Source of the DNA: Bifidobacterium breve
GTDB lineage: Bacteria > Actinomycetota > Actinomycetes > S36-B12 > UBA5976
Assembly (NCBI GenBank): GCA_945866135.1
Contig: CAMBGF010000006.1
Coordinates: 1 to 36,682, forward strand
Length of the DNA stretch: 36,682 bases
Reading direction: 5' to 3'
Part shown: positions 3,981-11,392 of the stretch, piece by piece
Layout of the letters: every line of letters begins with the position of its first letter
Position numbering within the stretch: the first letter of the stretch is position 1
Translations under genes and position numbers: made by a program
Notes under the pieces: generated by a model
Seen by the model: only the letters and a program-made list of their open reading frames with translations
Database searches by the model: none
What the model was told of the DNA's origin: nothing

Positions 3981-4352
3981 TTGTTCGCTGCTAGCGACAT
4001 ACCTGGGATGCCAAATACCCATTCTGCAAGGGGATTTCCCTATTGTTTAGATGTGATCTTTAAGTCAGTCTTGGACCAGCGCCCATACCCCGCCTTGACC
4101 ATAGCCAGTGAGGATTGGGCAGCACTAGCGCCTAGACAAATTCGCTTAGCAGACCTGGCTACGATTCGTAGCACGCTGGACTTAAATGCGTTGCTAGCTA
4201 GCGACTCGACATTCTTTGGTGACTTATTTGCCCACGTAGTTCGCTGGAATGGACAACTGTATTTAGAAGATGGTTTACACCGGGCTGTTAGAGCTGCGCT
4301 GCAAGGTCGCACTTCGCTGCATGCGCGCGTCATAGATTATCCAGAAAACTAA
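3981..4352 (+). CDS. conserved small protein with ParB-like (YLEDGLHR) motif; function unknown
   Basis: 123-aa ORF; IRLADLATIRSTLDLNALL...GQLYLEDGLHRAVRAAL resembles ParB/Srx-like folds; start codon uncertain. Confidence 0.65.
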   Translation: MFAASDIPGMPNTHSARGFPYCLDVIFKSVLDQRPYPALTIASEDWAALAPRQIRLADLATIRSTLDLNALLASDSTFFGDLFAHVVRWNGQLYLEDGLHRAVRAALQGRTSLHARVIDYPEN

Positions 4353-5092
4353 AGTCGTCCGGCTTCGTGCACTCGTTGTAAGAAATCTTGCGTATCGACA
4401 TGTTGCGGAGCGCTAATAACTTGTGAGGCTGGACCGCGTTCCACAATTTTTCCATTCTTGAGGAAACAAACTTCATCAGCAACCTGTGTGGCAAATCCCA
4501 TCTCGTGAGTTGCTAAGACCATCGCCATACCTTCAGTTTTTAGATCACGGACAATTGAAAGTACTTCATTTACTAAAACTGGATCAAGGGATGAAGTTAT
4601 TTCATCGAGCAGAAGAAGTCGTGGCTTAACGGCAATCGAGCGAATAATTGCAACTCGCTGTTGTTGTCCACCACTTAAGCGATCGGGAAATTGATCTGCC
4701 TTATCTGCTAAATCAAAACGGCGAAGCAGCGACATTGCTTCATCACGCGCCTGGGCTTTAGAAATTTTATGTACTCGAATTGGCGAAAGTGTGATGTTAT
4801 CTAAAACACTCATGTGTGGAAACAAATTAAAGGACTGAAATACCATTCCTAAACTTCGGCGGACTTCATCAACATCAATTCCTGGATCTGATATCTCGCG
4901 TCCATCCAAATAGATCGAGCCATCGTCAATTGAATCCAACAAGTTAATGCAGCGAAGCAATGTTGATTTACCCGAGCCAGATGCACCTATTAATACAGTG
5001 GCCGTGTGATCTGGAACGGTGAGCGATAAGTCATCGAGTACCAAGTTGTCATCGAAGCACTTGCGAAGGTTCTTAACTTCCAAAACATTCAT
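4349..5092 (-). CDS. amino acid ABC transporter ATP-binding protein (PAAT family)
   Basis: GASGSGKSTLLR Walker A, LSGGQQQRVAI signature, adjacent permease and binding protein. Confidence 0.95.
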   Translation of the reverse strand: MNVLEVKNLRKCFDDNLVLDDLSLTVPDHTATVLIGASGSGKSTLLRCINLLDSIDDGSIYLDGREISDPGIDVDEVRRSLGMVFQSFNLFPHMSVLDNITLSPIRVHKISKAQARDEAMSLLRRFDLADKADQFPDRLSGGQQQRVAIIRSIAVKPRLLLLDEITSSLDPVLVNEVLSIVRDLKTEGMAMVLATHEMGFATQVADEVCFLKNGKIVERGPASQVISAPQHVDTQDFLQRVHEAGRL

Positions 5093-5979
5093 GCTGCGCC
5101 CTGCGCATTCTGACGTTTAATCGATTTTGCAAGAACGCGATCCGTGTATCGAGTCAGCGGAATTGTGATGAGCAAAAATAGAATCGCAGCGGTTACATAA
5201 GGTGTGTAATTAAATGTGCGTGAACTAGCGATTTGCGCCGCCCGCACTGCGTCGGTCACACCAAGGATTGAAACTAAACCAGTGTCCTTAAGCAGGGCAA
5301 CCAAGTCATTTAGCAAAGGTGGTACCACTCGCTTTACAGCTTGTGGCAAAACCACATGACGCATAGTTTGTGAGGAAGTAAGTCCAAGGGATCTGGCAGC
5401 TGCCCGCTGACTTGGATGAATTGACAAGATTCCACTTCGCAAAACTTCTGCAACATATGCAGAATAAGTAAGTACCACCGCCGCTGTGCCGAGAATTAAC
5501 ACGCTGTTTGTTAGGCCCTCAATACGAAGGGCAGGTAAGCCAAAACCAATTAGCAAAATTACCAAAAGTAGCGGGACGCCTCGAAAAATGTCGACATAAG
5601 CGGTAGCTAAAAATCGAAATGGCGTTAGTGCTGCTGAGCGAGAGGTCCGAAGTAGCGCAAGTACCATCGCAAAAATTCCAATCAGAATTGCTGCGATTAT
5701 CGTTAATCTGATATTGACTATCAGCCCTTTGGAAATGGCGCCTAGGACTTCACTGCCATAAGACCAATCAAAAAAAGTTTCTTTAACTACTTGCCAGCCA
5801 GGTGAAGTAACAATCAGCGAAGCTAATGCGCCAAGAACCAAAATGGAAGAAGTTGTTGCAATCAGAATCTTTTTGCGATTGATTGCAGTTCGTGCTACTT
5901 GGCGCTCGACTTCACGCGCACTTGGCGTCCATAACGAAGCCCGACCCGAATTATCTCGGGCCGGGCTCACGTTATTCAT
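5089..5979 (-). CDS. amino acid ABC transporter permease (HisM/GlnP type)
   Basis: Multiple TM segments and a typical PAAT permease core (AEVLRSGILSIHPSQRAAARSLGL). Confidence 0.93.
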   Translation of the reverse strand: MNNVSPARDNSGRASLWTPSAREVERQVARTAINRKKILIATTSSILVLGALASLIVTSPGWQVVKETFFDWSYGSEVLGAISKGLIVNIRLTIIAAILIGIFAMVLALLRTSRSAALTPFRFLATAYVDIFRGVPLLLVILLIGFGLPALRIEGLTNSVLILGTAAVVLTYSAYVAEVLRSGILSIHPSQRAAARSLGLTSSQTMRHVVLPQAVKRVVPPLLNDLVALLKDTGLVSILGVTDAVRAAQIASSRTFNYTPYVTAAILFLLITIPLTRYTDRVLAKSIKRQNAQGAA

Positions 5980-5997
5980 GACTTAACTAAACCAGCA

Positions 5998-6873
5998 CTA
6001 TTGAAGTACTGGTGCGCCAGCGTCAGTTGAAAGCCACTTTGCGGTGATTTCATCTAATTCGCCACTGGCACGGATAGCGTCTACAGCCTGTGAAACACAG
6101 GATGTAATTGGGCTATCTTTTGTTAGCAACAATCCAAAGTCGCCACTATCGCCAGTTGATGGAATCTGGCCGACAATGATGCCGCCTTCAACTTCAACAC
6201 CGGCTAGGTAGAAAGCTGTTGGCAAGTCAACGACGATGCCATCAATCTGACCATTAATTAGCGCAGCTACCGCAGCAGCATTGTCATTAAATGCTTTTGG
6301 CTCGGAGCCAAACACTGCTGCAATTGCATCAAGTGATGTTGTTCCAACACCAGCGCCAAGCTTTGCGCCCTTTAGTTCCGCAATTGTGGTTAGACCCTCG
6401 ATTGGGCTACCTGCGTAAGAAACAATGGCCTGTGGTGCTGAGTAGTAAGGAGTCGAGAAATCGACAGCAGCTTTACGTTCTTCAGTGATTGAGAACTGTT
6501 GCAAGTTAAAGTCGAAGTCTTTTACACCTGGAGTAATTGCGCCATCAAATGTGGTGCGTACCCAAGATACATCTTCCTTAGCAAAGCCAAGTTGAGCTGC
6601 AACTGCATACGCAACTGCGGCTTCGAAGCCTTCGCCTGATTCCGGTGCGTCATCAATGACCCATGGGAAGTAAGCAGGCTCACCTGTAGCAATAGCTAGT
6701 TTTCCAGAAGTTAGCGTCTGCAAACTTTCTGGGGCACAGGCACTTGCTGTTGTTTCGGCGGTTGACGGCGCAGCTGATGCTGCTGTTTCTGATGACGATC
6801 CGCAAGCAGTTAATAGCAACGCTGATGCTGCAATTAGTGCTGTGCCAAATCGACGTGTTGTTACGTTTTTCAC
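5998..6873 (-). CDS. amino acid ABC transporter substrate-binding lipoprotein
   Basis: Lipobox LLLTACGSS; SBP family 3 pattern; GTG start with AAGGAG 5 nt upstream; upstream SAM-IV riboswitch. Confidence 0.93.
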   Translation of the reverse strand: MKNVTTRRFGTALIAASALLLTACGSSSETAASAAPSTAETTASACAPESLQTLTSGKLAIATGEPAYFPWVIDDAPESGEGFEAAVAYAVAAQLGFAKEDVSWVRTTFDGAITPGVKDFDFNLQQFSITEERKAAVDFSTPYYSAPQAIVSYAGSPIEGLTTIAELKGAKLGAGVGTTSLDAIAAVFGSEPKAFNDNAAAVAALINGQIDGIVVDLPTAFYLAGVEVEGGIIVGQIPSTGDSGDFGLLLTKDSPITSCVSQAVDAIRASGELDEITAKWLSTDAGAPVLQ

Positions 6874-6939
6874 GCTGTCTCCTTGATATTTCAGGTGGCA
6901 TGGGTCAACGGTTGTTCACCCAAGTTGGGCCCTGTTATG

Positions 6940-7048
6940 GACCCGCGCTTGCTGCTTGCGCAGCCAGGTCTTCATCCGGAGGCACCCCATCGCGGTCTGC
7001 AAGGGTTGTCGGATAGCTAGCCGGGACTTAGTGCTATCACTCTTGACC
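6940..7048 (-). promoter_or_regulatory. SAM-IV riboswitch aptamer
   Basis: Minus-strand GGTCAAGAGTGATAGCACTAAGTCCCGGCTAGCTATCCGACAACCCTTGCAGACCGCGATGGGGTGCCTCCGGATGAAGACCTGGCTGCGCAAGCAGCAAGCGCGGGTC aligns along its length with the recalled actinobacterial SAM-IV consensus. GATAGC/GCTATC and GCTGC-GCAA-GCAGC stems are intact, and the 3' end is GCAAGCGCGGGTC. Confidence 0.93.
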
Positions 7049-10612: not shown

Positions 10613-11392
10613 TTAATGAAGTGCAGAACCGCCTCTGGCTTTTTGGACTTGTTGCGTTGCGATTGCTATCAAAATAAACGCGAACAAAATGAGAGCGATT
10701 CGCTGTGGCACCTGGTGGCTGAGGTAAACCCCGAAAAATGTGCTCGGAACCCCCGCAATTCCTGAAAGTAATGCATAGGAAATCTCAATATTTTTCTTGC
10801 GCAGGTTGGACCAAGTCCCGGAAAGTCCCGATCCAACAATCACCAAAAGGCTAGTGCCACGGGCGACTACCGAATTCATGCCAGCCGCGATTACTAGCGC
10901 TGGGACCATGACAATCCCGCCACCTACTCCAAAAAGTCCTGCCATGACTCCAGCGAAAAAGCCAACTGCAATAAGTAAGGCAATACTTGCCCAACCATCA
11001 AGGAGTTGATGTGGGTTTGAAGACCAAATCAACCGCGCGGCCGATGAGTAGAGAAGGAATGCAAAGCCCAGTTGCAGAAACTTAAGTGGAACTTGCCCCA
11101 GTAACTTAACGCCATAAAGTGCGCCGAAAACTGAACCGGCTAGCAGTGCAATTGCTGCACTTAAGTCAACACTGTCCTGGGCTGCATACCCCAGCGCGCC
11201 GGCCAGTGCAATTGGCACGATGGCTGCCAATGAGGTTGCGTGCGATTTTCGTTGTTCCAGCCCCAGCCATGAGATGTATAGCGGAACCATTAAGAAGCCG
11301 CCGCCCACTCCGAACATTCCAGCCAGGACGCCTGCAAGTAATCCAATTACAACAGCTAGCCAGATTTGGCGACGTGTCATTGGCGCAGGCAT
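10613..11392 (-). CDS. TauE/SafE-family sulfite exporter-like membrane protein
   Basis: Duplicated GMFGVGGGFLMVP / GLFGVGGGIVMVP motifs. Confidence 0.92.
   Translation of the reverse strand: MPAPMTRRQIWLAVVIGLLAGVLAGMFGVGGGFLMVPLYISWLGLEQRKSHATSLAAIVPIALAGALGYAAQDSVDLSAAIALLAGSVFGALYGVKLLGQVPLKFLQLGFAFLLYSSAARLIWSSNPHQLLDGWASIALLIAVGFFAGVMAGLFGVGGGIVMVPALVIAAGMNSVVARGTSLLVIVGSGLSGTWSNLRKKNIEISYALLSGIAGVPSTFFGVYLSHQVPQRIALILFAFILIAIATQQVQKARGGSALH

Follow-up and report, generated by a model that had tools for sequence, protein, structure and literature searches.

The window analysed here, a 36,682-nt stretch (contig CAMBGF010000006.1, positions 1 to 36,682) of a draft genome, carries on its minus strand, at 4349-6873, an operon encoding the binding protein, permease and ATPase of an ABC importer of the polar amino acid (PAAT) family. 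The first gene (5998-6873) starts with GTG and encodes a substrate-binding lipoprotein of 291 aa with the lipobox LTAC (PF00497, SBP_bac_3; 1.2e-21); it is preceded by the Shine-Dalgarno sequence AAGGAG (6879-6884, minus strand), which is kept in the aligned leaders of congeners. The permease (5089-5979, minus strand, 296 aa) is a BPD_transp_1 protein with HEQRo_perm_3TM (PF00528, 1.2e-19; TIGR01726 above cut-off). Its gene overlaps by 4 nt that of the ATPase (4349-5092, minus strand, 247 aa), which is GlnQ/EhuA/TcyN-like (PF00005, 9.1e-34), with NF007027 GlnQ as the nearest, below cut-off, model. An SBP_bac_3 protein, a HEQRo-type permease and a GlnQ-type ATPase together identify a PAAT importer, in agreement with the earlier note, which had described a riboswitch 5' of such an operon. 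The interval given there, 5998-7048, takes in the riboswitch and the first gene, but the permease and ATPase genes (4349-5979) lie outside it. The MetN and MetI models scored far below cut-off against the operon proteins, and neither the binding protein nor the ATPase reached the cut-off of any NCBIfam specificity model. A gene for a PF23719 (VapB-like) protein (3981-4352, plus strand) converges with the end of the operon, in a position kept in the congener G008. Elsewhere in the window (10613-11392, minus strand) lies a gene for a protein resembling, by eye, the TauE/SafE sulphite exporter family.

The whole window was searched with cmscan against the 4227 families of Rfam 15. Besides a single tRNA match, the only result above threshold was SAM-IV (RF00634) at 7048-6940 on the minus strand, with a score of 82.4 bits (gathering score 38), an E-value of 2.1e-13 and the model covered from 1 to 116 of 116. 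This is exactly the interval in which the earlier note had placed a SAM-IV aptamer, with a covariance search named as the test of the claim. The rival SAM classes of the clan do no better at 6940-7048, as overlapping matches within the clan were reduced to the best one. The 3' end of the aptamer lies 66 nt upstream of the binding-protein gene, and it is the only SAM-IV copy in its own genome (a 1.28 Mb draft, 79% complete).

The structure of the aptamer was examined in 25 SAM-IV sequences, each located 5' of the orthologous PAAT operon in relatives. It comprises P1, P2a/b, P3, P5 and the pseudoknots PK-1 (CCGG/CCGG) and PK-2 (CCGCG/CGCGG), 34 pairs in all, and every helix found support in the set. 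Standard pairs filled 96.1% of the pair cells, in comparison to 87.2% in shuffled and 30-49% in slid alignments, and 13 of the pairs showed changes on both sides; no shuffled or slid version came close. The bulk of the covariation falls in P2a and P5. The window aptamer has the two stems predicted beforehand, GAUAGC/GCUAUC in P2 and GCUGC-GCAA-GCAGC in P5, and one A-C mismatch in P3. All 25 sequences share, without variation, GGU and GAG close to the 5' end, the stretch GGGGUGC and the final GACC, and in the Rfam alignment the window aptamer shows the consensus core letters around the SAM pocket. By sequence and covariation, the RNA is an ordinary member of the SAM-IV class, a known kind, and a predicted sensor of SAM.

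Two hairpins lie between the aptamer and the first gene, both on the minus strand. H1 (6927-6944; GGGUCC-AUAACA-GGGCCC) appears in every minimum-energy fold computed for the 16 distinct congener leaders, and its equivalents follow SAM-IV in the metY, metK and PAAT leaders of relatives, their arms co-varying with compensating changes. The PK-2 3' strand CGCGG ends in the two G residues with which the 5' arm of H1 begins. H2 (6901-6922; UGGGU-AAC...GUU-ACCCA), between H1 and the Shine-Dalgarno sequence, gave a z-score against shuffles of -2.6 here and of -1.4 to -3.0 in relatives; its stem and place are kept across genomes, its sequence is variable and no U-run follows it. By analogy with the usual practice of SAM riboswitches, the operon is most likely switched off when SAM is plentiful and on when it is scarce. 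Binding of SAM would stabilise PK-2, so that H1 would lose its base. In constrained folding of sister-genus leaders the mean accessibility of the Shine-Dalgarno sequence fell from 0.67 to 0.28 and from 0.84 to 0.33 (PAAT) and from 0.41 to 0.16 (metY); in this model the opened pyrimidine arm of H1 would mask the ribosome-binding site. The same mechanism was rejected for the window leader, where accessibility changed from 0.51 to 0.53 and which resembles most congeners in this respect. An intrinsic terminator 3' of the aptamer was also rejected, as the minus strand of the leader yielded none and matches in the region did not exceed the shuffle level. Rho-dependent control or an effect exerted via H2 is possible in the window leader.

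Less ordinary than the class of the RNA is its target, a PAAT importer, which is conserved as judged by comparison of genomes. SAM-IV was present in 42 of 60 relatives, and in the order Nanopelagicales it stands before the PAAT operon, before metY with or without metX, and in G023 before metK. It lies 5' of the orthologous PAAT operon in about 20 Nanopelagicales genomes, and it does so in most genomes of the genus as well as in other genera. The operon is sometimes next to a metY-metX pair that has a SAM-IV of its own, and a SAM-IV-metY unit is found 3' of the importer operon in G030, L140 and L143. In the named genome collection, scanned with the exception of L135 and L138, SAM-IV directly precedes the orthologous binding protein at 14 loci; several of these come from MAGs titled Nanopelagicales or Nanopelagicaceae and the others from MAGs of uncultured actinobacteria, some of them plainly mislabelled as to genus. 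No earlier link between SAM-IV and a PAAT importer was found in the literature searched, which did not include the original SAM-IV description.

The orthologous operons of the named isolates searched (Agromyces, Leifsonia, Micromonospora, Nocardioides, Geodermatophilus and others) had no riboswitch 5' of them, and no sulphur genes recurred when the neighbourhoods of riboswitch-free orthologues were checked for a clue to the cargo. In the binding-protein tree one supported clade contains most of the riboswitch-bearing proteins, and the topology requires the riboswitch to have been gained or lost at least five times. Within this clade the subclade L120-L135 (except L124) keeps the operon with a short leader and without SAM-IV. 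The existence of riboswitch-free orthologues in other Actinomycetota would suit a general importer of non-sulphur amino acids to which the riboswitch became linked incidentally, as would the nearest solved relatives of the binding protein, which bind Arg, Lys and Gln. Such an importer is nevertheless improbable, given that the link is conserved across several genera with a covarying aptamer and that the pocket has lost its contacts to polar side chains (see below). A sulphur amino acid can be inferred as the cargo with good support, because in the same clade metK and metY, the latter with or without metX, likewise have SAM-IV in front of them.

A further group of full-length SAM-IV matches was noticed in relatives (L072, L074, L075 and L077-L090). 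Their scores were lower, mostly 47-77 bits, and that of L090 (36.1 bits) was below the gathering score. The genes 3' of these aptamers encode non-methionine proteins, namely WhiB-family, HD-domain and unknown Cys-rich proteins. In several of them the start codon lies 7-13 nt past the aptamer, and PK-2 appears by eye to be compensated, with a Shine-Dalgarno sequence right behind it. They possibly form an orphan SAM-IV subclass.

The ligand was also sought in the binding protein itself. The AlphaFold model (pLDDT 86.6) adopted the open form, with ArtJ, ArgBP and AncQR as the nearest folds; assignment of a ligand from solved structures or the fold search was rejected, as the matches are generic PAAT binding proteins and not ligand-specific. 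The pocket was read from an alignment with LAO and with E. coli GlnH, whose sequence was checked against PDB 1ggg/1wdn. The clamp for the amino acid backbone is kept, with Arg133 for the alpha-carboxylate and Asp216 for the alpha-ammonium, and so are the aromatic lids Tyr68 and Phe109. Residues D10, K115 and H156 of GlnH, which contact the polar side chain, correspond to Gly64, Gly175 and Val215 in the window protein (the K115 position being G/A in the alignment); the change of D10 to G is common in riboswitch-free outgroup proteins too. The pocket has become less polar and suits an uncharged, less polar side chain such as that of methionine.

The gene content of the relatives bears on how methionine would be obtained. 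The earlier note had advised a check for metNIQ, and this was answered for MetQ: not one of the 60 relatives, among them the genome of the window itself, yielded this NLPA lipoprotein (PF03180), in a search that detects MetQ in 7 of 14 controls. Among the 11 congeners at least 88% complete, MetX and MetY occur together only in G002, G008 and G019 and are missing in the other 8. No MetA was found in the 25 relatives searched, and MetE-like matches in the genus were weak or absent. A full-length, single-frame MetH is encoded only by G008, and in G005 a long MetH-like frame is divided between contigs. Most other congeners have homocysteine methyltransferases of about 300 aa, one MmuM-like (NF007020 above cut-off in G001) and a second BHMT/MetH-like, together with a separate corrinoid protein. 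This pattern indicates that most species of the genus can probably remethylate homocysteine while lacking the known routes from homoserine to homocysteine.

These patterns of gene loss favour methionine over cystine as the cargo. Uptake of cystine or cysteine as reduced sulphur could be expected in cells such as the cultured acI strains, which lack assimilatory sulphate reduction (PMC5301498), and the binding protein and the permease have cystine importers of the TcyJ/TcyL type among their closest named PAAT families. Every cystine model, however, scored far below cut-off, the SAM-IV regulon consists of the methionine/SAM genes metY, metX and metK, and the acylated-homoserine route from cysteine to homocysteine would be closed to congeners that lack MetX, MetY and MetA; we regard this cargo as very improbable. 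Some other sulphur compound of the methionine cycle, converted in the cell (S-methylmethionine, methionine sulphoxide, homocysteine or N-formylmethionine), is a less remote but still unlikely choice. In its favour are the MmuM-type and second methyltransferases of most congeners, and a gene of the N-formylglutamate amidohydrolase family (PF05013) that occupies fourth place in the orthologous operon of L134 (6015-6800), L136 (6040-6834), L143 (5972-6760) and L151 (5968-6774). That gene is nevertheless absent from the window operon, retention of Asp216, the expected holder of a free alpha-ammonium, argues against an N-formyl ligand, and the less polar pocket does not favour cationic S-methylmethionine.

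Judged from regulon, gene loss and pocket, the importer most likely takes up L-methionine. One congener, G008, which has MetX, MetY and full-length MetH, has no operon between the conserved neighbours, the PF23719 gene and tadA. A remnant of the ATPase gene persists there (L196, G008:C80, 1241-1408; 56 codons, 73% identity), and its position between the same neighbours indicates that the operon was deleted in G008; as a single event this deletion carries little weight alone. The operon is also missing from G004, G006, G013 and G018, probably through an assembly gap, because tadA is absent from them as well. G005, in which MetY and MetH are apparently present, and G002 and G019, which have both MetX and MetY, keep the operon, so its loss is not strictly tied to biosynthesis.

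Taken together, the leader of this PAAT-type ABC importer contains a SAM-IV riboswitch, as sequence, structure and covariation show, and the importer would serve as the methionine supply of a freshwater Nanopelagicales genus, replacing MetNIQ and a MetX/MetY route that has largely been lost. The explanation as a whole, in which SAM-IV represses a PAAT importer of L-methionine that stands in for both systems, is considered reasonably probable; against it count the operons retained beside MetX or MetY in G002, G005 and G019, the subclade without SAM-IV and the unchanged Shine-Dalgarno access predicted for the window leader. For the narrower proposition, that a PAAT methionine importer unrelated to MetNIQ is the sole SAM-IV target in streamlined freshwater actinobacteria without MetX/MetY and was deleted in a full-pathway congener, the case is evenly balanced. 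Methionine may also be taken up through peptide or other permeases. The operon probably encodes the system by which a streamlined lineage, most of whose members are predicted methionine auxotrophs, imports this amino acid. For Nanopelagicales (acI), which rank with the most numerous bacteria of lakes, the operon would provide a specific and testable route of methionine acquisition. From this operon most species of the genus would be expected to be methionine auxotrophs, although four cultured acI strains have been predicted to synthesise every amino acid; it would also assign a function to a PAAT subfamily whose name cannot be read from sequence alone.

The window RNA has the same helices and both pseudoknots of SAM-IV (RF00634), whose cryo-EM structure is known (PMC6890682), and matches the model over its full length; it differs in having a PAAT importer as the target and in the conserved H1 that overlaps the 3' strand of PK-2. 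The genes metQ, metN and metI have been listed with SAM and T-box riboswitches (PMC12452182). As in the S-box (SAM-I) control of metNPQ in Bacillota, a predicted SAM-sensing leader precedes an amino acid ABC importer here, but the aptamer is of another class and the binding protein belongs to SBP_bac_3, whereas MetQ, absent here, is an NLPA lipoprotein. In gene order, domain families and the Arg/Asp clamp the operon is similar to GlnHPQ, ArtJ, TcyJLN and EhuABCD; the side-chain pocket residues differ, and the binding protein and ATPase remain below the NCBIfam equivalog cut-offs. In the auxotroph Lactococcus lactis a methionine importer is under T-box control (PMC7058034), and there, as predicted here, an RNA leader governs methionine uptake in an auxotroph, although the T-box senses tRNA-Met and not SAM and the L. 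lactis transporter belongs to the methionine uptake family.
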